A DNA stretch of 32,102 nucleotides, from IMG/VR virus record IMGVR_UViG_3300004448_000305, positions 1 to 32,102 of that record. The stretch is one strand, 5' to 3'. A model generated the notes under the pieces. That model was given only the letters and a program-made list of their open reading frames with translations. It searched no databases and was not told the DNA's origin. The first letter of the stretch is position 1, and every line of letters starts with the position of its first letter. This document shows, in pieces, positions 2,598-31,085 of the stretch. The translations under genes and the position numbers were made by a program. Source of the DNA: a virus.

Positions 2598-3171
2598 GTT
2601 TCAACAACCTCCATGCTATTGTCATTGGATTACTTCTTGTGAAAAGAGGATGACTTGCGCCTGTTATGTTCAATCCCGCGTTTGTCGGTTGACCATCTCT
2701 TTCGCGCAAATAGGTTGCGGGTAATCTGTGTTGAAGGCTTGGATGGTTAAGAGGATTATTTGCTAATTCTTCTGCGGATAATTGATGTGGGACTCTTGTT
2801 TGTTTCATAGGCGAGTCTCGTCTGAAACCCACTCTTTTTGGGTCAACAATTCGTTTTACACGTTCGTTATCTTTATCCATTACAGCGACAGGTCTGCTAT
2901 TCGTGGGCATTGCATTTTCAACATCATAATCTCTTCGATGGTCTTCCTCGCGAATGTCGAACTCTGTCATACCTTGCGCGCCTTTATTGTCAGCACCGGG
3001 ATGATGCGTTGGTTCAATCGTACCTGTCCCTTGACAATTATAACAGTCGACACGGTCATCAGGACTGCCGCGCTTAACACCATCTACACCACCTTCATCA
3101 AAAGCACCAACTCCGTTGCAGTTTGGGCATTTGAATTCATCGTCAAGCGGGTCTTTAAAATCATCAACCAT
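2590..3171 (-). CDS. Small protein with two DnaJ-type zinc knuckles and C-terminal AWRLLK motif
   Basis: This 193-residue protein has two knuckles, CPNCNGVG (15-22) and CYNCQGTG (43-50), which match the CxxCxGxG units of the DnaJ central zinc finger. No J domain is present. The four cysteines could bind one zinc ion. The middle (60-120) is charged and looks disordered. The last residues, PMTIAWRLLKHG, carry a W-x-x-L-K motif also found near the N-termini of three other small proteins in this window. I start it at the ATG at 3171, not the GTG one codon earlier, because that ATG forms a TGATG overlap with the upstream stop and has GGAGGT 6-8 bases before it. It lies between the tail hub and the fibre, so a tail-tip or assembly role is plausible. 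The function is unknown. Confidence 0.85.
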   Translation of the reverse strand: MVDDFKDPLDDEFKCPNCNGVGAFDEGGVDGVKRGSPDDRVDCYNCQGTGTIEPTHHPGADNKGAQGMTEFDIREEDHRRDYDVENAMPTNSRPVAVMDKDNERVKRIVDPKRVGFRRDSPMKQTRVPHQLSAEELANNPLNHPSLQHRLPATYLRERDGQPTNAGLNITGASHPLFTRSNPMTIAWRLLKHG

Positions 3172-3518
3172 CACGATACCTCCAATATGAATGAGAAGCG
3201 CACTTCGTTTTCAGCGTTCTTCGTGAAAGAGTTGATGTCAGCGCGATATACAGGGATGAACTCGCCAGTCGACGCGTCCTTGTATTGAATGTATACTTCC
3301 TGCACAGGCGTAGCGAAGATGTATGAGGCGTTAAAGACTGCCTCGACTAAGAGACTCGTATCGTCAATAATCTGTATGCGAGGTGTTGCTCTTGCAAGTG
3401 TGCGCGCTCCACCATCTTCGGATGTCGCAACTGTTCCGTCGCTTCCTATGTGGACTTCTGTAATCAACGTAGCAAGATGCTCAATCAAGCGTCGTTTAAC
3501 AGCATTGAGCATTGGCAT
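3171..3518 (-). CDS. Conserved-looking small tail-region protein, unknown function
   Basis: This is a protein of about 115 residues. The N-terminal part (AVKRRLIEHLATLITEVHIG) looks helical. The rest alternates beta-type stretches, ending in a VRFSFILEV strand. The frame stays open upstream to about 3767, but that stretch overlaps the whole FEKAW gene in another frame, so I place the start at the ATG at 3518, two bases after that gene's stop. A GAGG lies about 13 bases upstream. A GTG at 3527 or the ATG at 3512 are alternatives. Its stop overlaps the next ATG as TGATG. I do not recognise a family. The beta-rich C-terminus and its place beside the hub and fibre suggest a fibre connector or tail accessory protein, by position only. 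Confidence 0.7.
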   Translation of the reverse strand: MPMLNAVKRRLIEHLATLITEVHIGSDGTVATSEDGGARTLARATPRIQIIDDTSLLVEAVFNASYIFATPVQEVYIQYKDASTGEFIPVYRADINSFTKNAENEVRFSFILEVS

Positions 3519-3519
3519 T

Positions 3520-3777: not shown

Positions 3778-5456
3778 CAAATCTTCCTCCGTGTCTTGCG
3801 TCCTTTCGTTGTCCTCATCTCATGAGCGCGCGGTCGAAGCATTCGCATCTCCGCGATAGTTGAAGGTATGGAGGCTCCGCTGATTAGTGTTACGCCTGTG
3901 AAGGTTGTCGCAGTCTTACCGCTATACGATACAAATGTTTGGTCATTGAGTACAAGATGACCGCTACTATCAAATCCAGTTGTAGATGTAACGGTGATTG
4001 TCGTTGAACTAAATGTACCATTGATGCGCGGTGTAATTCCAAACCCAAGTGCAGAACGTCCTGCACCGTAACCGCTGTTTCGATGCCCTAACAGGACACC
4101 TGCGTGAATATCAGAACCCGCGCTTATACCAAACCTATGTGTTTTTACTCTTCCAAGAGATGATATTACAGGTCGAACTGTAAGTACACCTGCTACACGC
4201 ATACTGGCTTCACCTATTCCGCTTTTGTTTAGTTTAACAATTTGAAACGACCTGTCAACTGAATCTTTTTCAGAACTTACATCACCGTCATCCATGAACG
4301 ATGTAATAACCGCTTCAAGTCCTGCCTCATATGACATCATTTGGAAATCAGACTCACCAGTTGATGAGTGAGTCAGTTCAATAATCGCTTGTTTGACATT
4401 ACCAATCTGAGATTTGTATTCAACGATGTCTCCCGGCTCAAAATCCCACGACTGAGTGTGTTTTTTAGATGTTAAAGCACCCTGCGCTTTTTTGTTCAAC
4501 CTCAATGCTTGACCTGCTGATTTGCGCGCTTTAGATTCATTGTTTGCAGTTGGGTCAAATACTCTCATTTGTTTAATCGCACCATGCTTTTTCTGCAATT
4601 CAGCGTCATCAACTTGCACACTAATTTTATCATTAGCCGCAATACCTTTTCCCTTAACAGTAACTCGATTGGCTACGTTAACAACAGGGTCAATTTTTGT
4701 AGCACCAACACCGCGCTGAATTCCTAACTCTCTGTCTTTTAGATTGAATATTTTAGGCGCGTATAGGAAGTTACCGAATCTGTCATAGTACATGATAAAA
4801 TGGTCATGTCTTCCTACTGCTCTTACTGCGCTTGGTAAGACAAGAGAATTGAAGTTTTTAGCAACAAAAAGTGTACTGACGCCTTTTGTAGTAACGCTGT
4901 TTAACCCATGTAACGCTTTCGTGAAAAGTTTCTCAACTAAGTCTGTACTGCGCAGACCAACACTTACTGTTTGACCCGCGTGTACATGAGTTGTTTGACC
5001 CATTTGAAAGTCCGCTAACGTCCTTCCTTTCATATTGTTAAGAACAACTCTTGCACCTTTATTACCGCTAACTATTTTATCAGTTCTTAAACGCGCAAGA
5101 GTATCATCAGCGTCATACAACAACATAGGTCTACTTGATGTAGTGCTAAGTTGCTCACCATTAAAGAATGGTGAATCTTCGTGAGACGTGTGTGCTAATC
5201 TTACACTTGATTCTTCTTCACTAATTCTATATTTTCGCGGGTGTGTAGATTGAAAATCTTTTTGATTCGGTTTGCTGATTTGTATGCTTTTACTTTCACT
5301 TTGAACTGGCTCATAAATAACGTGATGAACTGCGTTATCTACAAACACAGGCTCTTCTGCTATTGCGCCTATTTCGTTGTGTACGTCATTCATTCGCCCT
5401 TTGCTTGGGGCAACATATGAAGTGTTTGCTGGTGAAGGAATACTGTAAGCCATCAT
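3777..5456 (-). CDS. Tail hub-like (Tal-like) protein, probable
   Basis: This is a 559-residue protein. Residues about 220-360 follow the pattern of phage tail hub proteins: a YDRFGNFLY strand, a NRVTVKGKG strand, a VDDAE-x4-GAIKQ segment, an Ala-rich helix with NKKAQ, then PGDIVEY. This pattern is what I recall from gp27/Tal/XkdQ-type hubs, so the call rests on family resemblance and not on a search. Residues 479-527 form a separate small beta module with TTITVTSTTGFDSSG and TTFTGVTL, a unit common in marine phage structural proteins. The C-terminus is very basic (KGRKTRRKI). It starts with ATGATG overlapping the giant gene's stop (ATGA) with GGAG nine bases upstream, which implies coupled translation. 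Hubs normally sit between Dit and the fibres. Here the giant gene lies between Dit and this gene. Confidence 0.55.
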   Translation of the reverse strand: MMAYSIPSPANTSYVAPSKGRMNDVHNEIGAIAEEPVFVDNAVHHVIYEPVQSESKSIQISKPNQKDFQSTHPRKYRISEEESSVRLAHTSHEDSPFFNGEQLSTTSSRPMLLYDADDTLARLRTDKIVSGNKGARVVLNNMKGRTLADFQMGQTTHVHAGQTVSVGLRSTDLVEKLFTKALHGLNSVTTKGVSTLFVAKNFNSLVLPSAVRAVGRHDHFIMYYDRFGNFLYAPKIFNLKDRELGIQRGVGATKIDPVVNVANRVTVKGKGIAANDKISVQVDDAELQKKHGAIKQMRVFDPTANNESKARKSAGQALRLNKKAQGALTSKKHTQSWDFEPGDIVEYKSQIGNVKQAIIELTHSSTGESDFQMMSYEAGLEAVITSFMDDGDVSSEKDSVDRSFQIVKLNKSGIGEASMRVAGVLTVRPVISSLGRVKTHRFGISAGSDIHAGVLLGHRNSGYGAGRSALGFGITPRINGTFSSTTITVTSTTGFDSSGHLVLNDQTFVSYSGKTATTFTGVTLISGASIPSTIAEMRMLRPRAHEMRTTKGRKTRRKI

Positions 5457-8400
5457 GCACCAACTCCGTTATCAGTTCTATCTCCTTCATTCGTGTGCGT
5501 GCTTGTGTTGAGCGCATCACCTGCATACAACTGTTGTGTGTAACGAGGTTGCACGTTGTAGTCAAAGCGTATGAATGCGTCAGCACCGTCTTTAACTGAT
5601 TGACTGCGACTCGCATCTCCTCTGAAATGTTGTAGAGTATTGCTTGTTACTATCATACGCGCAACAGGTTGTGTGGTAACGGTCGTGAAATCACTCGCTT
5701 CGCTTCCCGGTATCTTTGGACCAACGCTTGTAGGTGCGGCTGTGTCAGATAAGTCGAAAAGATACACAGGCGCATACGGTGGATTAGTTGGAGATGGATT
5801 TGTGTTTCTCATGTAAGAAGATGCGGCAGCGGCGGCACGAGCGTTTGGTGCATCGTACATGAACACACCATATCGACCTGCGGCAGTCGCTGATAGAACA
5901 TGAGATGTGTCATCGCGGAACAACTCAACGTGATTTTTATCAAGAACGCGTACAGGTCGAACAAGGAATTTGATTGTAGTATCCTTAACATTCGTTCTGT
6001 ATGACTTTGAATTGTGGTTGCTTGTTTGATACGGGTTTGTAGTTACACCGCTTGACGCGCCCCATAAATGGTCATTGATTGCTTCACCGTCAGATGATAC
6101 CTCCAAAACATACGTTCCTCCAATCGGAGGAATGCCATGCGTTGTTCCGAATTTCAACACTTGCTTCGCTGATGAAAAGTTAAGTGTATGTAAGTTAAGA
6201 TTATCAAGTGCGCGATTTGCTGTGCTAACACCACCTGCAAGAATGAATCGTTGACCAATCTGTCTGTCTGTGTGAAGGCTGTGCGCTTCTGTACTTGCTA
6301 CTGCGTAGTTCGGTGATACTTCTCCATCGTTCTCACCGACTGTCATCGCATCTAAACCAATACGAGGTTTTGATTTTGCAATTGGTTCTTGCATAAATGT
6401 GAAATTTGATTTTTCAATATTACTTCCTATATGCGCTTCTTTCTTTAGAAGCCCATCAGAACCTGCTATTTCCAATCTTGCGCTGATACCTCTTGGCATT
6501 TCATGAGACTCAAGTTGTATGTTTGAAGGGCGAATAAATCCGCTTGTAAACGGAGGTTCGCTCGTGTGATGAGATAACACCATTCCAAATGGTCGCATAT
6601 CTGCTGACACCTCTTGTAGTATATCTTCATTGAAGTATGTAGGATAACGAACACCGCGCCCATCTCCACGGTCTCCAACACGTTTAGCGGTGGCAGGGTC
6701 AAAGAAATTTACAGAGGCTTCTGCTGTTTTCAACCCCCCGTCAGTATACATACTCTCCGCGCTCTTTGTTCTGTCTGTTGCGCGATAAGCATCTTCAGGG
6801 TCCCATGAAGGACGAACACCAAACCCGCGCACAGGGAATCGTCTTACTTCTTCACCCGTAGTATTACCCCACCAATCAATCATATAATGCGCTTGAGCAA
6901 GAGCAAGGTTAACTCTTTGACTTGCTACGTTTATGTTGGCTTTGTATCCCGCAGGTGTGTCTGCATGGAATTTACGAAGAGTGTTTGTTTCATTAGCGAT
7001 GTTGCGAACTGCGCATCCAAACCCTTTGGTCATACGACGACCGTCGCTGTAACGAACTTGCTGTCCTTTCAAATCACTTCCTATAAGCGCAGATGCGTTT
7101 GTTTGACGTTCGATAATACCAACGTATGAAGAACCAACTGAGGTTGAACTTGTAGCATTACCGCTTCCTGTTTGAGTTGTAGTTGTCATGCTCGCACTTT
7201 CGCTACTAACGAATGGTCCTTCCGCTTGATAATGGAAATGGCTGTGAGGGTCGCGCAACGCTTGGTTGGCTTTGATAGCCCAACGTGGTCGATTGTAAGG
7301 TTGGCGAACAGATACACGATACCCCCATCCTTTATTTTTAAGTGTACTCGCTACAGTATTGATTGTTTCAGTAAGCGTTTCTACGTTACCGTTAGCAACA
7401 ACCAATCCTTTTGCGTCAGATACTTGCTTGATGTTGGGGTCATCCCATTTGTTTCTCCACCCCGGCGCGGCAGTACCATAAAGCGCAAGAGAACTCATTT
7501 GCGCTCCAAAACGATGACCACCCGGCCAAAATGCTCCAAGATGGTAGTCGTTTGCAGAAACAAAATTGTCTGTACCTGCTTGATTAGGGTAAGCCGCGTC
7601 AGGGTAAGTGTCAGTCAACCCATCACCGGGTCCCTCCCACGTTTTCATTCTAAATTTAAAAGGTCCATCGCTCATCGCGTATGTAAATTCGTGATAGTGC
7701 ATTGTCTCAAAATGCTCCGGCGCGTGATTGTAGGCTTTCTTGTCAACCGCCGCATCATCTTTGTCGGTTCGACTGTCAGAGAACCACGTCATCGGACGAC
7801 CAAGATTGTAATGCCACATACACAAGTAAGCATCAGGTAAGTGTAAAGAGTTAGTATCGCGCGTTCCTGAATGTAATTGTAATAAGTTTCTTGTCGCTAC
7901 ACTTGCTTCTGAATCTTTGTACACAGTATTAGGTTGGAAGGTATTGTAAGGAGATGACAATCGTACTGTTGCTCCTGTTTGCGCTGCTGCCCAAAAACCA
8001 CTCGTTTTGGCAGTTACATTATTGAAAACCACAGTCGAACCAACACCAGTTTGACTGATATGTCCTCTATCATGATAAGTTGCACTCTGTTCAACGCCGC
8101 TACTATCAACGATAACCAAATGATGATTGTAGTAATCAACACCAACCATAGGAAATAAAGAATTGTTGCGCACATACAGGGCAGTCCCTGTCCCTTGTTC
8201 AACAGTTGTAGTTGGCGTTAGCGAAGTTAAATACTCGGTATAAACATCAAGATAATGAGAAGGATAGCCAAGCATGGTTGTTTGTGTTCCTATGCCTCCT
8301 AACGTCGAGCGACAGTATAGATAGTAATCATCAGGTTGATTCTTTTCAATTCTTTTCCAGTTATTAGTTGTAAAAATAGTCGACGATTTAAGAGCAGCAG

Positions 8401-11400
8401 ACCACCACGGAATTGTTACTGTATTAGCAGGTGTAGAACGATGAAACATATTAGGGTTATATGGTAGACTGCGTCGCGTAAATGCTCCCGACGATGTTGC
8501 GTTCACACCAAACGGATTACTAAGACCAAGCATTGGTATGTTCGTAAATTGTTCACGAGTTGATGGGTCAATATCAAGCATTATTTCATTGAGATATATT
8601 TCACATCCGCGCACATCAGCCATAGTTGCTTCTGATAAAATTAAATCTCGCGCTTGCATTCCAACAACAGTTACTACAAGTTGGTCTGTCAAAGTTCTAA
8701 CAACTGTATTTGTACCACTTGGGTCTTCAGGTGCTTCGTTGGATACAAACACCGTGTTTTCATTATTCCCCATAAACTGTTTACTAAACAAGTTTGGTTG
8801 AATGACTATCTGATATGCACCAACTTCCGCAGGGTCAGGGAAGTGCCATTGTGTGTTGTAATTTGTTCCGCTTTCAAGTTGTATACGGTGTCCACCTGCT
8901 TTGTTACAAGCAGCAGTATCATCAGCAATACCGTACCCATCAAAGCGTATTTTTGTTTCAGTCAAAAGCGTAAACCCATCTCCGTGTATATCGCTTGGTG
9001 GATGCGGAGCAGTAACTCCTGAGAACCATAGAAGCGGATTATGAATAGTTTTAGTGGTGTCGTAATCTGTTACACCAAAGCAAGCGCGCCCTTCTTTGTT
9101 GAGTTTCTGATAGATTGGGTGCGCAAGATGACCCGGCATCATTGCCATAGTTGGTGCAACGTAATGATGACCCATGCGCGGCAATGGCATTGGTGTAAGT
9201 TTGTTAGCCGCGCGGACAAGTGTAGCAGGGCTTGTATCTGCTGACAAAGTACCCCAGTTAGTCAAAGGTTTGTCAGGGCTGTTACCGCTAATCTCTGAAT
9301 GGTCTCGTAATCGTCGTGCCGCGAACTGTCGAGTTGTACCTGCGGGGATGTAGTATGATGGTTTGATGGAGTCGTCCTCCTTAGCCGTAAAGTCAGGAGC
9401 AAACGTAACACCTGTAAACTGAGTCCCACCATCAGGTGCATCTGTAAAAGAAGCAATCGTACCGTTGATTGCAAGGAAATAGCGTCCATCAGGTGTTGGG
9501 TCTTGCTTCCAAATATTAGCAACAATAGCCTCTTTAGTTGTAATTGTGTTTGTACCAACAGATGCAACCGTCAAACGGTTGAGTGTCATAGTGTTGTTGA
9601 CGATGCTTAATGGCTCGCGCTCGGTGTATGTGTACCCCATTTTTGTAACGTGGAAATACAATGCGCGGTCGTGCGGTTCGTATGCTGTTTCAAGAATATT
9701 CTCTGACTGCAAAGAGTTGGTACTGTCAGGGAAGTTGTTTGGATTCTGATTGATGTGTTCATACCCTTCTTGTTCCCATCGAGGTGCAGTCTTTGGTCTT
9801 TCATTGTCAGATTCAAACACATCCTTTACTCCCTGAACAGGTTGAGAAGGATGTTGCAACCCTCCACCACCAAGCGTTTCATGTTGGTATGCTTGTAGAC
9901 GGTCGAACCCTGCGCGTACAAGAATGTTACCGGGAATATCATCGTGGTTAGGAAGTTGTATCTTCATGTTTGGTTGTACTCCTGAACCTGCAAGAGCAGG
10001 TGCAAGACCTTCATTTTCTCTGTCATGTTGTAATTCATAGTCGCGTATGACTACACCAAGCGGAGAACCACCTTCAAGCGTATGCTCTTGACCTGTATCA
10101 TCTACAACAATAAGTTTCTCAAATTGTAATTCTTCGTTGGGGATAGTAAGTGCGTTACGAACTTCATATGGATATTGTTCTGCTAACGCAGGATGTGCTA
10201 ATTCTTGCGCTTGAATGATTGGATACATTGCCGCGTTTGTTGTTTCAAACGAGAAACGAACATTACCGTAGATTGTTTCACCGAACTTAACATATGAACT
10301 TCCTACTTTGTGAATAGCCCACGGTATACTCCCAAGTCCGCGCGCGTTCTGAGCAGGGAGTGTCAAGTTTCCTCCACCCATTCGCTTCCATACAACGTGT
10401 TCAACAAAGAAGTTTCTTGCCGCGCTACGTTCTTTCCAGTATGTGTTGATGCCGTCGCGATGCGCTGCGTAATCACTATACCCTGTCATTTCTACTTTAG
10501 CAGTTTCAGTATCAAACAAATTGTCGTTTGGATACAAAGCATTGTTTGGATTGTCTTGTTTATCGAAAAACAAATCACCTGTTGGGAACAAACAAGTTTC
10601 TGCTTGCGCGGTTGATGTTGATGCTGATGTTGTCCAAAGCGGCGATGCGTCTGTTGGTCGAGTCATCGTTGTATCATACATTGCTTCAACGTGTGGTCCC
10701 GCATTTGATTCAGCATTGTATCGGTCGTTGTTAAATCGCTCGTTGTGATATGTGGTTACTGTTCCTCCTTGCGTTCCACCCCATTTGAGTTGCAACATAT
10801 CTCCTCCCGCTTTTTGTCCGTTACGCGAGGCTTTTGCAATAATAGGTAAATCACCTTCATAGGATATGACAATGAAATGTCGCTGATGTAATCCTGTCGC
10901 TTCATGCAGATTTGTTTTAGGTGTCCATGTATGTTCAGCACCATCAACATCGTTTGCTTCAACTATCCATTCTAACGAAGAAGGTTGATGACAGCCAAGA
11001 CCTACACCGTATGGATTGAACCCCATCATAGGATGCCATGCACCAAGTCCTGCGCTTACACGCGTGTTACCTGCATCTGTAACACTCAGACTGTTGAGAT
11101 ATGAATAGCGTTCACCATGCCATCCAACAGCACCAATAGCGCGCGTTCTGTCGATTGCATCAGTTACGCCATTGAAATGCACTTGCGTTGAAGCATAATG
11201 GTCAAACGGGCTGTTAGACATTACGCCGCCTGTTGTTGCACCTGTTGCACGCGCTCCTGCTGATGCCGCTTGAAATCCATTATCCCATCGCAAATTACCT
11301 GCTTTAGACCACACAAACACTTTATGACCTGAACCTGAAACAGTTGTTACATCACCTGTTCCTCCTGCAATCCCTTCTTCTAATCGAAACTGTCCGTTAC

Positions 11401-14400
11401 GGAAGTTTGCTCCAAGAACAAATGTACCTTGCGCTACATCATAATGTGAGTAGTATCCATAATATGATTTTGTACCGTTACTAACGCGTATCCACCCGTT
11501 TTCAGGGATTGTCATAGGCAGAGCAGTACCCACAGTAACAAGACCGTGTGGTGCGTTTGTATACGTTCCAAGAGAACCAACATCAATCCAACCATATTTA
11601 TCTTGACGTTGCGCATCTTGGAATGATGGTAAGAAAGAACCACCGAGAGCCTTAAGATTAGCGCGACCGGGGAATGTATTGATGGCTGATGCTATAATAG
11701 CAGCCATCTCTTCGCTGTTTTGACAACGAGATGCATCAATTAAAAATACATCATCAGGGACTGCGGCATTTAAGTCGTGGTCATAGTCAGTAAGAACTTG
11801 CGAACCTACTCGGAACATTGTTGCATTAAGTCCAAGTCTGTCAATATATGAAACAGGCCCGTTTACTGATTCAACAAGTGTTGCACTAATAGGGTGCGGC
11901 GCGTTCTTTCTTACGCTGTTATCAAACCATGAACCACCTGCGGTATATCCTCCATCAAGATGATAAACTAATTTGTTGATACTAAAATTAGTAATGGCTG
12001 ACGGAAAACGAGCAGTCGCCGCATAATGTGAAAATGGGTGCGCGTATTCATTTGATGCAGACTGTGATACCGCTGTTGGTGCAAAGAAATGACTACTAAC
12101 GTAGCGCGCTGTTGTTGATAATGCTTGATTGAATGCGCTGTTTGGCGACCCATACGATGGTTCCCAATGTCGATATGTTTCATATGGGAATACATTGTTT
12201 GCACCATATGCGTCTGTTGGAGGTAAGAATTGATTACTCGCGCTATTGAGCGTTCCGTTGCTTAATTCGTTTGGTAAGAAATAACCTGACTCATTGCCTT
12301 GATTAAACGTAGTTCCAACAGCCCCATCAAGCGCGCAGTATTTTTTCCATGCCGCAACCCATTTTGCTGACGGTTCAACTGATGCAGTTACTGCCCCCGC
12401 TTCTCCACTCCAATGTTTAGGAACAGCCTGACCGGGACCGAATACCATGTACGCGACGCTATTTGTGCTATCAGAATATCGAGCATATGGATGAGCGAAT
12501 CGAAGAACGACAGGAATTGGTTTAGCAATTTTTACATTTGTGTATGTGGTGTCGGGTATTGTATGTGAGTTTGTGTTACCGTCAATATCTGTATTCATTA
12601 CAGCATCAGAATTAGAGAAAGGAGGTGTTGCTTCTCCGCGATGTTGATTCGTAAGAGCCGATGCAGGGAACATAGCAAACAAAGCCGCAGTATCAAGAAT
12701 AGCGTGAGACCCCATCTTCTCTCCAATATCTTGTAAACCCGCGCTTCCTGTTGGTCCCTTAGCGTAAGGGTGTTTGTTGTGTGTTGAATAATCTACCCGC
12801 GACCCGTCGTTGATGTCCATTACAACGCCGCTAAAGCCACCACCAAAGTAAAGTGGCACATGATGGTCAATACTATCTTGCGCTCCTCTAAAGTACAGTA
12901 TTGGATTACCTTTTCGATTCGCTCGCAATCGCATACCTTGAATATCATTTACATACTTGAATCGCTGCATAACAAGATTGTTTGCAAGTATATCTTTGAA
13001 ATCTCCTTTACTGTCATGGTGATGCCACGCGATAAGATGAGTACCAACAACGGTCGGTGAATCAATAGAACTTAAAGCCGCGCAATACAGATAAGTATCT
13101 TCGTTAATATCCATACGTTTGAAGGGCGACCACGACCCATCAATAGAACCGGAGAACTCAGTTGCTGCTGTTTCTTGATTGAGATTTGTTCCACCGCTAA
13201 TATGTTGTTTTTGCCATGCGTGTTGACGTCCAACAACAGCAAAGTTGTGAGGGTCGCGAACTTCTATTTGATAAGTATCGTAGGCAGTTCCTGCTGCATA
13301 ACCAACTGCGGTGTTGATTTGCCCATCGAGTTCGTATGTATGTGATTCAAGCGCAGGTGTGATATGGTCGCCTTCAAACCGTGTAAATTTATCACCGCGC
13401 AAATGTTTTTTCCATTCGTTAGTCGAGACAGCGTTATTTGTTTGGTCTATAAGTAAAGGGGTTGCTGTGTTTGCATTACTTCCTTTATATCGAGTTGTAA
13501 TGTTAAGGAGAGTTGACGGCAAATAACCGCAATCTAACATTAAATCGTTCAAGTTTTGTGTTGATTTTACACCACCGTATTGACCACCTGAACCAAATGA
13601 TGTACTAATATTACCAAACTCTTTTGTGCTTGCGCTAATACCCCAATCTTTAGATAAAGAAACAGAAAACATATCGCGCAAAGGTGTAACATTTTTGTTG
13701 GGATTAAATTTGGAAATTTTAATCGCAGTCTGTGCATTACTTCCTAACCATTCTTGGTATGTTCTACCGTCAGGAGCGCGCAAATGACTACAATCGAAAT
13801 ACTGGTCATCTTCATTCGGGTCAACTGTGAATGCGTAGGCTGTCGCTGCCGCAATCAACTCGTCTGTTACGATAGTCGTCTGATTAAGATGAGGACTGAG
13901 AATAACAGGAGCGTTACCATTGCTTACACTTGTTGGACCAAACTTAGCCGCGCTTCCAAACCATTGTTCCATGTCATCAGCATTTACACCTTGTAAGCCC
14001 ATAAACGTATGAACTCCTCCGCGCCCATTGTGTGTTCGTGATGTGTATGAGAAAACAACACCGGCGTCGTTGTAAGTTGAACCTGATGCAGGTATAGCCA
14101 ACCATACCAAGCCACTATCAGGGAACCCCATCCATCCAAGTACATCGTCTACATCAGGCAGTTGATGCCATATACCACCATTGTGATAACCGTATCCGCT
14201 TGCTTGATGTAAAAACAACGTATTTGGGTTGTCGTATGTCGAACCTGTTTTTGCTGTCGTATCTGTTCCAATAGTAACAGCATAACCTGCGTTAGGAGTA
14301 TACGCGCCTCTCCATTTATTTCCCCTCCATTCATGAGTATTTGTGGCGGTGTAGAAGAACGGTGTTCCTTGCTCTCCTTCGCCCCACATATTTGCTCCGA

Positions 14401-17400
14401 TAGTAAAACCACCTTGAGCAACATCGCGGTCATCAAAATGAATCATTGTTTCTTCGTCAATTGTAGGAGGTAGAACGCTATTTTTGTTAACAAAACTATC
14501 ACCTTCGCGCCTGTATACATAACGAAGAATGTGAGATTTACCTCTGTGGTCAATAAGTTTCATACCATACAGACTTTGAGTACCAACAATATTGTCATTC
14601 GTTTCTGCTGATGGTGCGTATATACTGTATGTCCCATAATACGCAGACGATGAGGCTATGTACTGACCGTAGACTTTGACAAACCTCCCTGACGATTTAC
14701 CATTTTCTCCGAATCCCCAATCACCTGCATCAGGTGCGAAGCCCGGAATACCTGCTGCGACAATACCACCAAAATTGATTCTTGATTTAGCGCGAGTTCC
14801 TGTTTGCAGACCTTCTCGGATTGTGTACTTTTGACCTGAATTTTCAAACGACTCCATTGAACCGCTGTTTGATGAACGACCTGTTGTTGCACCTGTGTTT
14901 GGTGTTTCAAACCCTTCAGCAGAATTTAAATTTTCATCATACCCAAGATGTAAATTTGTAATGAACTCATCGGCTGTTTCATCTAATGCTACATATTCGC
15001 GCAATGTAGTAATTGGCGCAAACGGTTTGCCATTCTTGTCGATTGGCATTGGTGCAGGATGCATATTTTCTCCTGCAACTTCAGGAGGTGTGCAGTAAAA
15101 GTTTCTGAATCTTCCACCGTGTCCGATAAGGAATTGGGGTTTGTATTCAGATTGACCTTTACTGTTATCAAGCCATACACAAAAATTGCGACTCGACGCG
15201 CCGGGAACTGTACTATGAACAACAATACTGAATCCTTCGTTGCCATTAGCATCTTCAACAACACGACCTAAGTGCGCGCGTAAATATCCCATGTGTGAAC
15301 CACGGTCGAAAGAAGTGAAAGCAGTTTCAGACCAAAACGGAGCAGGGTCATACGTTGAGCCAGTTACAGAGAAATCAGCATGATGATGCATAGCAGTAGC
15401 ATCTGTTGGTTTCTCTGTGTCATTACCACCTGCTGACGTAGAACGACGATTAACATCGAATCGTTCACCTTCTCCTGCGTATTGGTCAGATGGGCGACGC
15501 TGACTGCTACGACCGTTAAGCGCACCGCTTTGGTTGATAAGTCGAACAACTTCCTTAGCCGCCGCTTCTATGTCTGTAACACCTTCTCTTAACCCAACTT
15601 CTCCTAAATCAATAGACATACGTCGAACAAAGTCCATATCAGTCCAATGAGGTAAGTTTTCCAATCTGTCTCCAAGCGCAGTTGAAGACTCATAATGATT
15701 GGATAAATCGTTTGGTTTTGCGCGCTTTCCTTTCAAACATAGGAATGCAGATATTACTCGCGTTCCTTCAGGTGTATCAAAGAATGTTGAACTAAACTCA
15801 TAATGCCCAGTTGTATTGTCGATTATATCTTCTGACGCATCATGTTCTATTGTTTCAGCGTGACGCAGATTCGCCTTGTCCATATCAATAGTAGACTGCG
15901 TTACACGTCCTTGACCGTACTCGACAGACTCATCACCAAATTTGACATTGTGTTCTGTTTGACGTGTGCTACGCGCATATTTTGTTATAGCAACGCCTGA
16001 CGTAAGCATATACGCATTATCCATCATCCACCACATTTTGTGTGCGTATGCTCCTTCAACATACTGAGATTTACCATCATCTTTTATCAGATTGTAAGAG
16101 GTGCTGTTGATGGTTTGAGCGTCTGTGTTGGATACAGATGCATTTTTATCTTTTCTTTGTGTTTTGAAACCTGCCGCGACATCAAGCCCTTCAATGGTTG
16201 GTGTAGCCGCGCTTGTTTGTACTTGCATATGTATATCGTGGAATGCGATGAATTCTCTGTCATGCGCTATATCATAAAGTAGGACACGCGTATTCTGTTC
16301 TGTACTAAGATAAGGGTCAAGGAATGCTACGACAGGAGGGTTTGTTGAATGACCAAGCGTAGTCCAATTCAATTCAATTGTTTTATTTATATGTTGAACA
16401 AGATTGCGAGCAGTCTCAATACAAGTATCGCCAATAAGGAAATTTTCAAGCGGTAAAGTATCTCTCGCCTCAACCCCCAATTCTCCTTTACCACCGTTGA
16501 ATCCTCTCCACACTTCGTATTCGTTAAGAACTCCCCGCGATTTACAGAACATTCCTTCTATCGCATGAGGGTTTGTATAATGCATATTCATCCAAACAGT
16601 ATCACCATAGCGCAAACCACCGGGGCAATATGGATTATTCCATGTTGCGTTTGCAATACTGTCAGGGAGTTTAAGAGGGAATGTAGATGCGTTAATTGCA
16701 TAGATACCTAACAGCGTTAGCGTATCTAAAGCACCTGATGTAACCAAAGCAGGAGCAGAAGAATCGAGAACAGGATGTGCCTGAACTGTGATTGTGTTAT
16801 CTGAAGTTGTTGAATTGTAAGTAATTTGATACTTACGTCCTGTCGCTTCGTTGATTGCCGCGAATGCATAGTTTGTCGGAAGATGACCTTTCGGTATATC
16901 TCCTGTAAAGTTGAATTGTGTAGGTGATGTTGTTGCTTTATAACGCACCAGTTTCAACTTTGCATTCTTTGATTTGATTCGCGCTAAGTGAGGGTTTGCT
17001 GTCGGACCCGATTTAAACTCGACCGCGCTTACATATTGTCTAAGACCATAATCGAGACCACTCCCTTGAGTTAAAACACTACTGCGGTCATAATAGAAAG
17101 GTCGACGATATTCTTGACCTGACGATGTGTAATTAGTATCACCAGTTAAAGGAAAATTGATTCCATCAGGTATTTCACCAACGCGTATTTCAGCACCCGG
17201 CGTAAGCGATGCGAAGAAATCTTCACTTGAGTGATTTTCTGCATCGCTCAAAGTAATGCTTACACCACCTACGGATGTGTAATAGCACCATTCACCATTC
17301 CCTAAGACAACTCTTCTTGCTCTTCTTATGCTAACACCGCGAACAACTCCTGCTCCATTTAAATCAGATAACGGTATTCTCCCTGCACCTTCTTGAATTC

Positions 17401-20400
17401 GTAATACGTTTGTTGTTCTGTTGTAATCTCTTACTGTTGAGCGCGTTGGTAAATTGTTTGTTATGTTGTACTGATACTGACCAAATGCTTCGTAATCGTT
17501 AGCAGGGCTGTTTGGAGCGCGACGTCCAACAGGTGAGGGATTCCAAGACTGAGCCGTCATTGTAGGGTCAAAATGTAACTTCATGCTGTTATCAGGAGAA
17601 GGAAATACACCGTTAGTTCGGTCTTCAAAGAATTGTTGAGGGAAGAGTGGTATTTCAACGAGCGCGCGTGTGCTTGCGTACTGAGTCCCAAGTTGGTAAT
17701 CGTGTTGCACAGAACCAAGTGATTGAAACAATCTGTCGTTTACTGTTGTCCCATCAGAACATATAGATGCTGAATCAAACAAAGGGTCGAGTAGAACTGA
17801 GTTTCCTATCTGCAATTGACTTTGCGTAACCCAATTACTGAATGTGTAAACCGCCCTTCCATTACCAAGAATGAACGACCTATCTCCTGCACCTACTGAA
17901 CCTGCAAATTGAAAGTATGTACCTGTTCTACTTGTGTACGCGATGTTTGCTCCGTTAGATAGGTATAACCTTCCTGTTGCAGGGAAACCATAGGTTCCCC
18001 ATGATGAGAGTGAAGATGAATTATTGTTGAGTGCTTGAACAGTTATGCGATAATTTGTCGTATCAACGTCTTGGCATTGTGTGGCTACATCATGACGAGT
18101 GTTCCAACCAACGCGCGACAATGTAGCAGGGTCCCAAGTTGGTTTTGTGTTAACTGCACCCTGTCCTGCACCACCAAGCGTTACAGAAACAACAGGCGCG
18201 CCGGGTTGTATCTCTTTGACAATATGTGAATCAGGACTTCCGTCTCCACTATATCCTACGGTTTGGTCTGCAACATCATCCATCAATCCCTTACCTTCCA
18301 TTGTAATGAAACGACCCATTGCCGTATCACTAATCTGCATTGAGTTGATTCGACAAGACGATTGAATGTATTCTATTGTAAAGAATGATGGGTCAGTCGC
18401 GCTAAGAGAAGTTGTAGTTGCTCTTGATAACTGCATTGTTCTTTCGCGTTTTGATGGATGAACAATAATAATATTGTCCGCCCCGTCTACGTTGTTGTCA
18501 ATAACATCAAACATCTCAAATGCACCACCTTTCTGTGATGCAAAGATTTGAGATTCTTGATAATGAATAGGTATCTCGTCAACAGGAGGGTCGCTTGAAC
18601 TTCTCTTTCGTGGTTGAAGATGCAGTTTATGATACGCGGAAGGATGTAATGTTGTACCTACACCTTGCGGAGGCTTTGCCGGTTCGTCGCCTGTGCTTCG
18701 CGGAGAGTAGTTTGATGGTATATGAGACTCATCTAAATCTTCTTCGTATTCTAAACCACCTGCGTTATCTCCAACCAAGTAGTGAGGTGCGAGAACTATG
18801 CTTCCATCACCACCGACATAACTTGATGGGAATTGAATAATACCACCGGGAGAATGAATGTTTGCATTAGCGGCTATTGCATCTGCAATATGTGCGGCTA
18901 CGCGCTTACCATTTAGTAAACAACCTCCATCAGGAACAGTCTTTTCAATGAGTATAGCGGGGTCGCTTAAGCCCATTTTAGCACCTGTTAAATCCACAGC
19001 ATTGTAGTGTATCTCTACATACCCTGCCGGTACACCTGACACCTCAAGTATGGCTACACGCGACTCTGTCTCAGGGGTTAGATGTTTTTTGTAGACAGCG
19101 GTATCAGTTGCGCTTGCACCGAGTCCACCACCTTTGAGGAGGAAAGGACGTATGTCGTCGACTGAGATAGCAATTACTCCATCGCGATGAGCGTCGGGCG
19201 GTGATATACTTGCTAATCCATTTCTTGCTATTCCTTTAGTTATTGTTCTGGTAATAATATGAGAAAAGCGAGAATTCATAGCAGTATGAGTTATCTCAAC
19301 TTTGCTGTTAACTGGGATTTGCTCTTTCAATCCAACATAAGAACCCGCGAAAGTAACTAACACATCATCTGAAATACCGTCGATAGTGCGGGTTATATCT
19401 TGATTGGTGATTGGAGGTAAGAGACGCAAATACGGATGTCCTTCTCTATGAGAATATGCGTGTCGTCCTGTATGACCAATTTTGAATTTGTCATCTATTG
19501 ACCAACTACTCGGAGAGAAGTTATTACCTATCGCTAAATTGCGCGAAAACATAAATCCGTGAAACCCATATCCGCTTTCATCTATGACCATAGCACCTGT
19601 TCTATCAATTGCTTGACTTCCTGTTCCTAATCGTTGATGAGGTTTACCAGTCATACTGTCAATGAGCAAGTCAGAGCGCACCAATACCATAGTTGAATCG
19701 TTAGCGAGGTTGTTTGACGAGTTGAACGCTGTTCGCGAGTGTAGAACGCCTCGTAGTCCTGTATCCTCTGATACTCCAAAGTCAAGATGAATACTATCAA
19801 CGGTGATAGTTCCATTAGTGTTAATGGCTTTGAGTCTGATACGTTCAGGTGCAGTCCCGTTTGGTATACCTGTGAGTATATCTGTACCCGTTGGATTGAT
19901 AAGAATATTGAATGGTGTGTGTGCAACACTAATGACTTGCGCGCTTGTGCTGTGCGCAGCGTTAGCAACGCGATAATTACCAAGACTCTCAAGTGTGTAG
20001 TTTGTAGATAGTGTTTCAGATTTACCGCTTACAAGTTCATACAACGTCTGACATTGGTCAGCACCGATTGTAATGCTTGTATCACCTGCTGTTACGTTTG
20101 ATGTAATCTTAAAGACATCCTTGTCAACCTCAACAGGTTCTTCAAATCTCCAAAGACCTATTGTGCTTCCTGAACGTATACACGGCTCTGCGCGTATTGC
20201 TGCTGATGATACATCCCGTTTCCAATGAACAGATTCGATGTAACCACGATATTCACCACCCTCTCCGCCAATAAATAAATCGCGGTCATTGATGTTACAT
20301 TCATATCGCTTGTTCATCTTTTCAGATGCCATCAGTTCTCCGTTGACATACAACTTAACCTGATTCCCTGTAAACTGTCCTGAGATATGATACAACTCTC

Positions 20401-20818
20401 GTTGACCTGTATTGTAATCGACATTGTTTGAAATGAAAGAAGCGGCAGACGTAGGGTAATTGTTTGCGCTACGCGCGATACAACTTACTCCATTAGAAAA
20501 TGTAACTGAAAAAGAAGCAGGAGCAGGAGCATTAACAGAACCCATTCGTAACTCAAACAAACCATCTTTGCTGACAATGACGCCACCGCAGTCAGGGCTA
20601 ACCCATGCTTCAAGGGAGAAACTCTCTAACGCTTGATTCACACCTAACGCATAACGATGGCTATCTCCATCTTGCAAAACAGGTGCAGAAGAGCGCGCTT
20701 CGTTACCATCAAGCACTCTTTTGTGACCAGTCTGCGTAAAGTTACCTTGAGGACATACGACGGCATCGCTAATACCGTTAAAGAAGAGAGCATGACTCGT
20801 CTGTCCTATAACTGCCAT
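5453..20818 (-). CDS. Giant 5121-aa tail-tip or adhesin-like structural protein with N-terminal LamG-like domain
   Basis: A single open frame of 15,366 bases encodes 5121 residues, about 550 kDa. Residues about 50-205 look like a LamG/concanavalin-type jelly roll (SLEAWVSPD near the start, LYHISGQFTGNQVKLYVNG in the middle, GYIESVHW at the end), a fold that often binds sugars. The rest is beta-rich, high in Asn, Thr, Gly, His, Trp and Tyr, with many short turns and no membrane segment or signal peptide that I can see. Several amphipathic helices of the form AxxIxxxIN recur, at about residues 1466 (TARNLVQHIN), 1753 (AKEVVRLIN), 3035 (EEMAAIIASAIN) and 4486 (ETINTVASTL). I recognise no enzyme, protease or peptidoglycan hydrolase motif. 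The start has GGGGAT upstream and lies 4 bases after the Dit-like gene. Position between Dit-like and hub-like genes makes it a tail-tip, baseplate or long side-fibre component. The role in host attachment is inference. Confidence 0.8.
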   Translation of the reverse strand: MAVIGQTSHALFFNGISDAVVCPQGNFTQTGHKRVLDGNEARSSAPVLQDGDSHRYALGVNQALESFSLEAWVSPDCGGVIVSKDGLFELRMGSVNAPAPASFSVTFSNGVSCIARSANNYPTSAASFISNNVDYNTGQRELYHISGQFTGNQVKLYVNGELMASEKMNKRYECNINDRDLFIGGEGGEYRGYIESVHWKRDVSSAAIRAEPCIRSGSTIGLWRFEEPVEVDKDVFKITSNVTAGDTSITIGADQCQTLYELVSGKSETLSTNYTLESLGNYRVANAAHSTSAQVISVAHTPFNILINPTGTDILTGIPNGTAPERIRLKAINTNGTITVDSIHLDFGVSEDTGLRGVLHSRTAFNSSNNLANDSTMVLVRSDLLIDSMTGKPHQRLGTGSQAIDRTGAMVIDESGYGFHGFMFSRNLAIGNNFSPSSWSIDDKFKIGHTGRHAYSHREGHPYLRLLPPITNQDITRTIDGISDDVLVTFAGSYVGLKEQIPVNSKVEITHTAMNSRFSHIITRTITKGIARNGLASISPPDAHRDGVIAISVDDIRPFLLKGGGLGASATDTAVYKKHLTPETESRVAILEVSGVPAGYVEIHYNAVDLTGAKMGLSDPAILIEKTVPDGGCLLNGKRVAAHIADAIAANANIHSPGGIIQFPSSYVGGDGSIVLAPHYLVGDNAGGLEYEEDLDESHIPSNYSPRSTGDEPAKPPQGVGTTLHPSAYHKLHLQPRKRSSSDPPVDEIPIHYQESQIFASQKGGAFEMFDVIDNNVDGADNIIIVHPSKRERTMQLSRATTTSLSATDPSFFTIEYIQSSCRINSMQISDTAMGRFITMEGKGLMDDVADQTVGYSGDGSPDSHIVKEIQPGAPVVSVTLGGAGQGAVNTKPTWDPATLSRVGWNTRHDVATQCQDVDTTNYRITVQALNNNSSSLSSWGTYGFPATGRLYLSNGANIAYTSRTGTYFQFAGSVGAGDRSFILGNGRAVYTFSNWVTQSQLQIGNSVLLDPLFDSASICSDGTTVNDRLFQSLGSVQHDYQLGTQYASTRALVEIPLFPQQFFEDRTNGVFPSPDNSMKLHFDPTMTAQSWNPSPVGRRAPNSPANDYEAFGQYQYNITNNLPTRSTVRDYNRTTNVLRIQEGAGRIPLSDLNGAGVVRGVSIRRARRVVLGNGEWCYYTSVGGVSITLSDAENHSSEDFFASLTPGAEIRVGEIPDGINFPLTGDTNYTSSGQEYRRPFYYDRSSVLTQGSGLDYGLRQYVSAVEFKSGPTANPHLARIKSKNAKLKLVRYKATTSPTQFNFTGDIPKGHLPTNYAFAAINEATGRKYQITYNSTTSDNTITVQAHPVLDSSAPALVTSGALDTLTLLGIYAINASTFPLKLPDSIANATWNNPYCPGGLRYGDTVWMNMHYTNPHAIEGMFCKSRGVLNEYEVWRGFNGGKGELGVEARDTLPLENFLIGDTCIETARNLVQHINKTIELNWTTLGHSTNPPVVAFLDPYLSTEQNTRVLLYDIAHDREFIAFHDIHMQVQTSAATPTIEGLDVAAGFKTQRKDKNASVSNTDAQTINSTSYNLIKDDGKSQYVEGAYAHKMWWMMDNAYMLTSGVAITKYARSTRQTEHNVKFGDESVEYGQGRVTQSTIDMDKANLRHAETIEHDASEDIIDNTTGHYEFSSTFFDTPEGTRVISAFLCLKGKRAKPNDLSNHYESSTALGDRLENLPHWTDMDFVRRMSIDLGEVGLREGVTDIEAAAKEVVRLINQSGALNGRSSQRRPSDQYAGEGERFDVNRRSTSAGGNDTEKPTDATAMHHHADFSVTGSTYDPAPFWSETAFTSFDRGSHMGYLRAHLGRVVEDANGNEGFSIVVHSTVPGASSRNFCVWLDNSKGQSEYKPQFLIGHGGRFRNFYCTPPEVAGENMHPAPMPIDKNGKPFAPITTLREYVALDETADEFITNLHLGYDENLNSAEGFETPNTGATTGRSSNSGSMESFENSGQKYTIREGLQTGTRAKSRINFGGIVAAGIPGFAPDAGDWGFGENGKSSGRFVKVYGQYIASSSAYYGTYSIYAPSAETNDNIVGTQSLYGMKLIDHRGKSHILRYVYRREGDSFVNKNSVLPPTIDEETMIHFDDRDVAQGGFTIGANMWGEGEQGTPFFYTATNTHEWRGNKWRGAYTPNAGYAVTIGTDTTAKTGSTYDNPNTLFLHQASGYGYHNGGIWHQLPDVDDVLGWMGFPDSGLVWLAIPASGSTYNDAGVVFSYTSRTHNGRGGVHTFMGLQGVNADDMEQWFGSAAKFGPTSVSNGNAPVILSPHLNQTTIVTDELIAAATAYAFTVDPNEDDQYFDCSHLRAPDGRTYQEWLGSNAQTAIKISKFNPNKNVTPLRDMFSVSLSKDWGISASTKEFGNISTSFGSGGQYGGVKSTQNLNDLMLDCGYLPSTLLNITTRYKGSNANTATPLLIDQTNNAVSTNEWKKHLRGDKFTRFEGDHITPALESHTYELDGQINTAVGYAAGTAYDTYQIEVRDPHNFAVVGRQHAWQKQHISGGTNLNQETAATEFSGSIDGSWSPFKRMDINEDTYLYCAALSSIDSPTVVGTHLIAWHHHDSKGDFKDILANNLVMQRFKYVNDIQGMRLRANRKGNPILYFRGAQDSIDHHVPLYFGGGFSGVVMDINDGSRVDYSTHNKHPYAKGPTGSAGLQDIGEKMGSHAILDTAALFAMFPASALTNQHRGEATPPFSNSDAVMNTDIDGNTNSHTIPDTTYTNVKIAKPIPVVLRFAHPYARYSDSTNSVAYMVFGPGQAVPKHWSGEAGAVTASVEPSAKWVAAWKKYCALDGAVGTTFNQGNESGYFLPNELSNGTLNSASNQFLPPTDAYGANNVFPYETYRHWEPSYGSPNSAFNQALSTTARYVSSHFFAPTAVSQSASNEYAHPFSHYAATARFPSAITNFSINKLVYHLDGGYTAGGSWFDNSVRKNAPHPISATLVESVNGPVSYIDRLGLNATMFRVGSQVLTDYDHDLNAAVPDDVFLIDASRCQNSEEMAAIIASAINTFPGRANLKALGGSFLPSFQDAQRQDKYGWIDVGSLGTYTNAPHGLVTVGTALPMTIPENGWIRVSNGTKSYYGYYSHYDVAQGTFVLGANFRNGQFRLEEGIAGGTGDVTTVSGSGHKVFVWSKAGNLRWDNGFQAASAGARATGATTGGVMSNSPFDHYASTQVHFNGVTDAIDRTRAIGAVGWHGERYSYLNSLSVTDAGNTRVSAGLGAWHPMMGFNPYGVGLGCHQPSSLEWIVEANDVDGAEHTWTPKTNLHEATGLHQRHFIVISYEGDLPIIAKASRNGQKAGGDMLQLKWGGTQGGTVTTYHNERFNNDRYNAESNAGPHVEAMYDTTMTRPTDASPLWTTSASTSTAQAETCLFPTGDLFFDKQDNPNNALYPNDNLFDTETAKVEMTGYSDYAAHRDGINTYWKERSAARNFFVEHVVWKRMGGGNLTLPAQNARGLGSIPWAIHKVGSSYVKFGETIYGNVRFSFETTNAAMYPIIQAQELAHPALAEQYPYEVRNALTIPNEELQFEKLIVVDDTGQEHTLEGGSPLGVVIRDYELQHDRENEGLAPALAGSGVQPNMKIQLPNHDDIPGNILVRAGFDRLQAYQHETLGGGGLQHPSQPVQGVKDVFESDNERPKTAPRWEQEGYEHINQNPNNFPDSTNSLQSENILETAYEPHDRALYFHVTKMGYTYTEREPLSIVNNTMTLNRLTVASVGTNTITTKEAIVANIWKQDPTPDGRYFLAINGTIASFTDAPDGGTQFTGVTFAPDFTAKEDDSIKPSYYIPAGTTRQFAARRLRDHSEISGNSPDKPLTNWGTLSADTSPATLVRAANKLTPMPLPRMGHHYVAPTMAMMPGHLAHPIYQKLNKEGRACFGVTDYDTTKTIHNPLLWFSGVTAPHPPSDIHGDGFTLLTETKIRFDGYGIADDTAACNKAGGHRIQLESGTNYNTQWHFPDPAEVGAYQIVIQPNLFSKQFMGNNENTVFVSNEAPEDPSGTNTVVRTLTDQLVVTVVGMQARDLILSEATMADVRGCEIYLNEIMLDIDPSTREQFTNIPMLGLSNPFGVNATSSGAFTRRSLPYNPNMFHRSTPANTVTIPWWSAALKSSTIFTTNNWKRIEKNQPDDYYLYCRSTLGGIGTQTTMLGYPSHYLDVYTEYLTSLTPTTTVEQGTGTALYVRNNSLFPMVGVDYYNHHLVIVDSSGVEQSATYHDRGHISQTGVGSTVVFNNVTAKTSGFWAAAQTGATVRLSSPYNTFQPNTVYKDSEASVATRNLLQLHSGTRDTNSLHLPDAYLCMWHYNLGRPMTWFSDSRTDKDDAAVDKKAYNHAPEHFETMHYHEFTYAMSDGPFKFRMKTWEGPGDGLTDTYPDAAYPNQAGTDNFVSANDYHLGAFWPGGHRFGAQMSSLALYGTAAPGWRNKWDDPNIKQVSDAKGLVVANGNVETLTETINTVASTLKNKGWGYRVSVRQPYNRPRWAIKANQALRDPHSHFHYQAEGPFVSSESASMTTTTQTGSGNATSSTSVGSSYVGIIERQTNASALIGSDLKGQQVRYSDGRRMTKGFGCAVRNIANETNTLRKFHADTPAGYKANINVASQRVNLALAQAHYMIDWWGNTTGEEVRRFPVRGFGVRPSWDPEDAYRATDRTKSAESMYTDGGLKTAEASVNFFDPATAKRVGDRGDGRGVRYPTYFNEDILQEVSADMRPFGMVLSHHTSEPPFTSGFIRPSNIQLESHEMPRGISARLEIAGSDGLLKKEAHIGSNIEKSNFTFMQEPIAKSKPRIGLDAMTVGENDGEVSPNYAVASTEAHSLHTDRQIGQRFILAGGVSTANRALDNLNLHTLNFSSAKQVLKFGTTHGIPPIGGTYVLEVSSDGEAINDHLWGASSGVTTNPYQTSNHNSKSYRTNVKDTTIKFLVRPVRVLDKNHVELFRDDTSHVLSATAAGRYGVFMYDAPNARAAAAASSYMRNTNPSPTNPPYAPVYLFDLSDTAAPTSVGPKIPGSEASDFTTVTTQPVARMIVTSNTLQHFRGDASRSQSVKDGADAFIRFDYNVQPRYTQQLYAGDALNTSTHTNEGDRTDNGVGA

Positions 20819-20822
20819 AACA

Positions 20823-22016
20823 TCATATCCCCGTCATGAAGTCTATTGGCATGAATGTTAAATCACCTTCGTAGACGTTTTCACCTGCATTGTAACTGAA
20901 TGACATTGAAACGACTGTACCTGTAATTCCAGTCTTTGGATTTGTCGGGTCAAAAACACTTGACACTCCTAACGTATTTGCTTCGGAACCTTGCTCATAC
21001 GCGTTCGTTCTTCCTGTCATTATTATCTGATTTCTTTCAGTATAATCTTCGTTGTTAGCAGATGATGTAACAAGAGAGTTGTAAGGCAATTGCATTCCAA
21101 TAATGTAATCCGCGCTTTGTTTCGTAGCAAGACTAAAGTTAGCCTCGACAAGCGCGTTTGGGTCATCAGGGTCAGATGGTCCACCTAATGCGCGACCAAC
21201 TGCTCCAACACCTAATGTCGCGTTGCCTACATAGCCAATTAAATCTTGAAGTTTATCCCCCGCGCTTTTACAACTTCTATCTAAACCACCTGCGAATACT
21301 TCAAAGAAAGGATTCTTGTTCGCGAACGTGGTGCTAAACGTAGGCGTTTCGTTGTTCCCTGCGAAGCCTTTTTCTTTGGCTGTGAATGTTAATTTAGCAT
21401 TACCGAGTGTTGAGTTGATACCTGCACCTGCTGTGATTGTAAATGCATCGGTGAAGTTTGTACCTCCGTCTGTTGTCAGTTGGTCGGTGTATTGTCCTGC
21501 TGCACTTTCTAAAGCAGTCTTGATAGCAGTCGCTAATGCTAACCCTGTTGATACACCACTAATTCCTACGGATGTAATAGGAGGGTTGTTTGTTTTGCTG
21601 TGCGAAGTAGTTGATGAATTGAATAGAATGCGAATGGGTTTGAGTGCCGTAGTCGTTCCTGTGTAGGCTGTTTCGATTTCAAAATAGAGATTGTTCAAAT
21701 CAGACGCGGATATACCATCTGCACCATCTCCACTCATGAGAACAGGGTGAGAGCCACCACTATTTTCTTTACGCGCGCTGAAATCAATAGATGCTACTGC
21801 TCCTATTTTTTCAAATGAAGAGGCAGAGCAGTCATCATCAGCGAGTATAACAGTAAGTTTGTAATCAGCCGTTACCATATTGAGGTCGACAGAATATCGT
21901 TCACCAAATACAGGGACTGGAAGAACAGGAACGCTTCGCGTAATGTTAAGTGAATACGACGTACAGTCTAACACAAGCAGTTCACCATCGTTGCGAACCA
22001 GTCGAACTTTCGTCAT
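20823..22016 (-). CDS. Distal tail protein-like (Dit-like), with an inserted beta module
   Basis: This 397-residue protein directly follows the tape measure, where siphoviruses encode the distal tail protein that closes the tube and starts the tip. The first 60 residues (VRLVRNDGELLVL, then LPVPVFGERY and DYKLTVIL) look like strands of a tail-ring domain, and the end (MSFSYNAGENVYEGDLTF) reads as the returning strand of the same sheet. Residues about 110-235 form an insert with GVSTGLALATAIKTAL and FTAKEKGFAGNN, a pattern also seen in the 527-aa adaptor-like protein. The start overlaps the tape measure stop as ATGA and has a strong AGGAGGT six bases upstream. The Dit call rests on gene order and strand pattern. 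Alternatives are another tail-tip ring protein or a minor tail protein. Confidence 0.55.
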   Translation of the reverse strand: MTKVRLVRNDGELLVLDCTSYSLNITRSVPVLPVPVFGERYSVDLNMVTADYKLTVILADDDCSASSFEKIGAVASIDFSARKENSGGSHPVLMSGDGADGISASDLNNLYFEIETAYTGTTTALKPIRILFNSSTTSHSKTNNPPITSVGISGVSTGLALATAIKTALESAAGQYTDQLTTDGGTNFTDAFTITAGAGINSTLGNAKLTFTAKEKGFAGNNETPTFSTTFANKNPFFEVFAGGLDRSCKSAGDKLQDLIGYVGNATLGVGAVGRALGGPSDPDDPNALVEANFSLATKQSADYIIGMQLPYNSLVTSSANNEDYTERNQIIMTGRTNAYEQGSEANTLGVSSVFDPTNPKTGITGTVVSMSFSYNAGENVYEGDLTFMPIDFMTGI

Positions 22017-31075: not shown

Positions 31076-31085
31076 AATCACCTCA
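31076..31085 (-). promoter_or_regulatory. Stop/Shine-Dalgarno junction element TGAGGTGATT (capsid to 153-aa gene)
   Basis: The first three bases are the capsid stop codon and GAGGTGAT is complementary to the 3' end of 16S rRNA. The next start follows five bases later. The same ten bases recur at two more junctions (30603-30612 and 29939-29948), which points to coupled re-initiation. Confidence 0.8.

Follow-up and report, generated by a model that had tools for sequence, protein, structure and literature searches.

Does a single uninterrupted reading frame of 5,121 codons, found within a viral DNA fragment, encode a real protein, and if so, what part might so large a chain play in the virion? 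We addressed these questions using an IMG/VR virus record, a linear fragment of 32,102 bases that was analyzed in full and is referred to below as the window. The protein itself is referred to as the giant.

The giant reading frame and its surroundings

The frame extends from its ATG to its stop codon without an internal stop and occupies 48% of the window, in agreement with the original prediction of an unbroken frame taking up almost half of it. The computed isoelectric point of the product is 5.8, and no membrane-span-like segment was found in a calculation on the full protein. The longest stop-free run arising by chance in 100 simulated windows of matched dinucleotide make-up was 253 codons. 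Comparison with a homologue at 87% identity gave a dN/dS of 0.07, and pN/pS against the same homologue was 0.05-0.20 across all 300-codon blocks; purifying selection therefore acts along the full length of the protein. Together, the simulated maximum and the low dN/dS rule out a chance frame. The gene starts 4 bases past the end of the preceding 397-aa gene, and its stop overlaps the following gene by 4 bases, as in a tightly packed operon.

Homologues are widespread, the family comprising about 370 contigs in IMG/VR. A first scan with residues 1-1124 as the query matched 24 loci, and profile scans with residues 1380-1960 and 3200-3700 identified 314 and 371 loci, respectively. Each of the 27 distinct complete homologues (5,099-6,000 aa) is encoded by a single gene. 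The gene immediately following the giant, encoding a hub-like protein, served as an independent probe: a giant-homologous frame was located directly upstream in all 72 hub loci with sufficient upstream DNA for testing, and in 70 of these it was unbroken to the limit of the locus. The few breaks encountered look like frame errors. Those in G028, G033, L379 (two frame changes) and L389 are frame changes within alignable sequence, and a seeming split in G016 is a run of Ns. For G033 and L389 there are unbroken relatives at 97-99.7% identity, so that these two breaks are likely sequencing or assembly errors. No lineage in which the giant is convincingly split into several genes was found among the 72 hub loci and the homologues examined; division of the gene among relatives had been chosen beforehand as a test of the prediction, and the giant was undivided in all 27 complete homologues and at every hub locus. 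An assembly artefact is ruled out on the same grounds, the readings as a frame-shifted pseudogene or a split gene were both rejected, and the frame is confirmed as real.

No relatives were found among the annotated phage records searched, in which near ones may be hidden. A homologous protein in a viral model library, UniProt A0A1B1IU10 (BFVD fragment 4; 38% identity over 480 columns within giant residues 3440-4250, Foldseek E 1e-16), is likewise very long, being divided by BFVD into at least four pieces, but unlike the giant as read here it has neither name nor function in the tables searched. A member of this protein family had therefore been deposited earlier. No text describing the giant was found in the open-access literature searched. 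Pieces of the giant also occur inside genome bins labelled Cytophagaceae and Maricaulis (L153, L154 and L155); these three fragments are probably mis-binned archaeal virus contigs.

The size had been described as rare for any viral structural protein. It is rare but not unique, because PHROGs includes virion structural profiles of 6,136 (phrog_701), 4,179 (phrog_2885) and 3,319 positions (phrog_5342), to which the giant is akin as a multi-thousand-residue phage structural protein. Some homologues carry small inserted beta-modules that match these profiles, as does one such module of the hub-like protein; the body of the giant itself gave no match to them at E up to 1. We regard the giant as a new and extreme form of a familiar type of protein, within a family conserved over several hundred contigs; in one relative of 103 kb, about 15% of the genome is devoted to it.

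All large genes of the window lie on the (-) strand in the usual head-to-tail order (capsid, connector-like protein, tube, tape measure, 397-aa protein, giant, hub-like protein, small gene, 194-aa protein, fibre), and both the tail-cassette setting and the short tape measure proposed originally were recovered by profile searches and gene order.

Table 1. Features of the window and of the giant protein, listed in transcriptional order.
Feature	Position	Strand	Evidence or remark
HK97-type major capsid protein, partial	31083..32102	(-)	phrog_24667 E 3e-31
Connector-like protein, 527 aa	27521-29104		
Tail tube protein, 642 aa	24865..26793	(-)	PF18906 E 1.8e-7
Tail tape-measure protein, 571 aa	22013..23728	(-)	phrog_1535 E 1e-13
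397-aa protein, between tape measure and giant	20823..22016	(-)	position of distal tail (Dit-like) protein
Giant tail protein	5453..20818	(-)	ATG start, 5,121 aa, 559 kDa
N-terminal LamG / concanavalin-A-like domain, giant residues 64-201	20216..20629	(-)	PF13385 E 1e-7
Giant residues 1380-1960, containing some of the best-conserved stretches	14939..16681	(-)	alignment
Small all-beta domain (predicted), giant residues 3727-3827	9338..9640	(-)	local confidence about 90
Histidine cluster GHHY...PGHxxHP, giant residues 3883-3901	9116..9172	(-)	alignment of 78 sequences
Module insertion site after giant residue 4397	7627..7628	(-)	316-aa module in some relatives, absent here
Module insertion site after giant residue 4925	6043..6044	(-)	second, about 220-aa LamG in some relatives, absent here
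Hub-like protein, 559 aa	3777..5456	(-)	4-base overlap with giant stop
Small conserved gene, about 115 aa, internal ATG (MPMLNAVKRR)	3171..3518	(-)	relatives
Tail fibre, at least 865 aa, runs off window	3..2597	(-)	phrog_24456 E 6e-34

The position of the 397-aa gene is what tentatively suggests a Dit-like product. Members of the alignment of the 559-aa protein match PF13550 (E 2.7e-5) and the YQBQ family PF24032 (E 1.2e-5), which hints at a hub role, and the gene was found in 15 of 15 divergent giant-bearing records. For neither of these two proteins did a profile hmmsearch find a reliable relative in the PDB. Relatives of the small conserved gene match only 58% of a 198-aa frame, and its homologue in G011 has 116 aa; the first 83 residues of that frame are probably untranslated. 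The 194-aa protein, located between the small gene and the fibre, contains CxxC pairs. No sequence homology was detected between the neighbouring tail genes and the tail genes of HVTV-1 and vir519. In a sister clade (L103:1305-5306, L134:2382-5294, L145:2379-5297), the tape-measure and giant genes are separated by two tandem relatives of the 397-aa gene, some of which encode 800-860 aa.

Identity of the virus

Magroviruses are described as among the most abundant viruses of the ocean and are known from sequence alone; to our knowledge, there is no virion proteomics or imaging for any of them. All 10 giant-bearing contigs of 82-118 kb encode a family B DNA polymerase, the window being a fragment without that module, and all 10 also encode a chaperonin (Cpn60_TCP1). 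The chaperonin of one of them, G017, scored best with thermosome models, under their curated cut-offs, and lies next to the small subunit of replication factor C and an ERCC4 nuclease. The capsid protein of G017 is 33-34% identical over 99% of its length to those of HVTV-1 and HCTV-1, haloarchaeal viruses of the Druskaviridae. Membership among the magroviruses was judged by a genome of about 90-120 kb that encodes a family B polymerase, by a chaperonin and by a Druskaviridae-related capsid protein, features that mark these viruses, which are assigned to Poseidoniales (PMC12999244, PMC10768690, PMC10160649). Since longer relatives carry all three, the virus of the window is very probably a magrovirus (Magrovirales, viruses of Poseidoniales). 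The thermosome-like chaperonin of G017 also agrees with the thermosome encoded by those marine group II viruses that form clade 1 (PMC5332604). Magroviruses are uncultured (PMC10768690), and the giant offers a concrete target for examining how they reach the likewise uncultured Poseidoniales.

Two further features of the longer relatives were observed. In the eight contigs with both genes mapped (G017 and G024-G030, behind L078, L095, L100, L124, L123, L131, L134 and L103), about 2-6 kb separates the hub gene from the chaperonin gene, which lies beyond it on the other strand, so that chaperonin and tail cassette face each other. The long relatives also encode other very large proteins, of about 2,000-3,000 aa, on the head side (L061:12014-18061, L062:14996-L063:1928, L064:5784-14900, L065:10522-17709), with no Pfam match in those scanned; one of these directly precedes the prohead protease, a place occupied in HVTV-1 by a 1,313-aa gene labelled 'zeta toxin'.

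Domains, conservation and exchangeable modules

The LamG jelly roll originally noticed at the N-terminus was recovered by PF13385 (Laminin_G_3), which scored above its cut-off (32.7 bits versus 27.6) at residues 64-201 only; an N-terminal LamG is also present in 19 of 34 divergent homologues. Besides LamG, no domain was recognized in the giant with Pfam, PHROGs and NCBIfam, as the prediction had anticipated. Among the Pfam matches there was neither PF13550 nor a gp27-like hub domain, although divergent hub folds often escape sequence search. Self-comparison by sequence and by profile revealed no clear internal repeats, the only pairs (941-1022 with 2228-2319, and about 2102-2144 with 3086-3139) being marginal. 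Conservation is spread over the full protein, with an uneven profile in which well-conserved blocks are separated by variable linkers and which peaks at about 1400-1540, 1830-1940, 3470-3640, 3825-3900 and 4000-4100.

The blocks and linkers, together with the size, would be expected if the giant were a polyprotein cut during assembly into several tip proteins. No protease domain was found in it with Pfam or NCBIfam, however; the prohead protease of relatives is located in the head module, and no lineage convincingly divides the giant into genes. We therefore consider such processing very unlikely.

Structure prediction by segments, as had been proposed, yielded little. AlphaFold2 with 78 homologues gave a mean pLDDT of 51 and a few confident beta domains for residues 3440-4250, whereas residues 1380-1960, with 13 homologues, yielded a pLDDT of 33 and no fold, and that model was discarded. 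The top rows of a Foldseek and VIA-align comparison of the 3440-4250 model were tail tube, phage GP4 portal-tail, lambda tip and GTA baseplate chains. The best match to a solved structure, a phage tail tube (Z 8.2 over 83 residues), is at about background level, and unrelated barrels (F1-ATPase, Uba1) scored similarly. Because Z values of 5.5-8.2 are background, tail and tip folds were dropped and no fold is claimed for this region. Searches of profiles of residues 3440-4250 and 1-1250 with hmmsearch found no reliable PDB relatives, and no fold in the conserved body could be matched with meaningful confidence to any tip or hub protein already known. We infer that most of the chain adopts a beta-rich fold. 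Within the histidine cluster, H3884, H3897 and H3900 are present in 78 of 78 sequences and H3885 in 77, a pattern that may reflect a metal site.

Large insertions recur at few positions among 86 aligned homologues: about 85 aa after residues 618 and 759, 85-250 aa after residues 1339, 2194 and 2506, and others nearer the C-terminus. The insert at 4925/4940 in relatives is a second LamG of 210-230 aa (PF13385 E down to 1.3e-8). L144 and L189 have the 316-aa module and L134 lacks it, although these giants are otherwise 96-97% identical, which indicates that it was recently gained or lost at a fixed site. For this module hmmsearch found no reliable PDB relative, and a weak WD-repeat match (E 0.27) hints at a beta-propeller. 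Other inserted modules match small beta-modules of PHROG virion structural proteins and tail fibres. The fixed sites of gain and loss provide a natural record of changes in surface ligands.

An adhesin covering several host ligands was one of three functions originally offered, and the LamG together with the optional second LamG and other modules at fixed sites agrees with it in part, the ligands being only putative. The same features would suit a surface adhesin that decorates the tube or neck of the tail, has no structural role at the tip and serves chiefly to bind several ligands on hosts or particles. This we regard as improbable, since every locus tested (72/72) has the giant upstream of the hub and the body of the giant is strongly conserved, as is not required of a dispensable decoration.

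Tail tip or tail fibre

Each tail gene was compared against the same set of 11 relatives. The giant is 39-87% identical with 98-100% of its length aligned, and the tube and hub behave alike. In the fibre, the first 220 residues are kept (81-95% in close relatives), while the last 600 align over only 22-47%. The giant thus lacks the conserved attachment region and hypervariable end expected of a trimeric tail fibre. Because the end of the fibre varies and the giant is evenly conserved, it is most likely the downstream fibre that reads host range, with the giant serving as architecture.

These comparisons bear on another of the functions offered originally, a very long fibre. One chain might form such a fibre, or a set of side fibres, and use LamG as the lectin at its tip. 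The length and lectin-like domain of the giant would fit such a protein, as would the extra lectin modules that relatives carry close to the C-terminus. Against this, the giant is conserved evenly at the level of the tail tube, and it showed neither clear repeats nor a hypervariable end, a collagen domain or an intramolecular-chaperone domain; its LamG is N-terminal, the usual attachment end of fibres, and a true fibre gene is already present downstream. A fibre is accordingly disfavoured, and we judge it unlikely.

A massive tip complex, the remaining option, fits best. The giant gene is positioned between the tape measure and distal tail gene on one side and the fibre on the other, as for tail-tip hubs and megatrons. 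The megatron of RcGTA, a tip protein of 1,304 aa, combines several domains, among them adhesin-like and fibre-binding ones (PMC7296036). Like this protein and siphophage tip hubs, which have adhesin-like and fibre-binding parts with a separate hub alongside, the giant is large and multidomain and comes after the distal tail region and before the fibres. It is four times longer than the megatron and, unlike it, has no detected PF13550 hub domain, which is present instead in homologues of the next gene. Given that the giant precedes the hub, that hub signals occur in the family of that next gene and that the megatron provides a precedent, we infer a location at the tail tip. Taken as a whole, the observation behind the original prediction was confirmed and its interpretation was supported in part.

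We therefore favour, with moderate confidence, a reading of the giant as the main scaffold of the tail tip or baseplate, made as one chain and displaying optional carbohydrate-binding modules. The non-contractile magrovirus tail would then end in a scaffold formed by a single chain of 559 kDa that comprises numerous distinct domains, most of them beta-rich, and is assembled beside the hub protein from the following gene. Three or six copies might come together with the hub beneath the distal end of the tube, the conserved body building the architecture of the tip. The LamG and optional modules would face outward and bind archaeal surface sugars weakly and repeatedly, allowing the tip to dwell there until the separate downstream fibre made the specific host contact; opening of the tip would then release the tape measure and DNA. 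A more far-reaching version, in which this single-chain baseplate replaces several siphovirus tip proteins and offers sites where exchangeable sugar-binding modules dock, and in which the virus thermosome, whose gene follows the hub at a distance of a few kilobases in most of the giant-bearing genomes examined, mainly folds the giant, appears quite doubtful.

For four magrovirus groups, Laminin_G_3 appears among the listed auxiliary metabolic genes (PMC10160649). Those genes and the giant have the same Pfam domain, but in the giant LamG makes up a small fraction of a tail protein that is structural and no metabolic enzyme. The listed genes probably include, at least in part, the giant tail gene, which suggests that LamG genes counted as magrovirus auxiliary metabolic genes are at least partly tail proteins.

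A minor observation concerns a small beta-module common to the C-terminus of the hub-like protein (residues about 482-540) and relatives of the connector-like protein; hairpin motifs similar to this module of the hub occur in the giant at about 944 and 2230.
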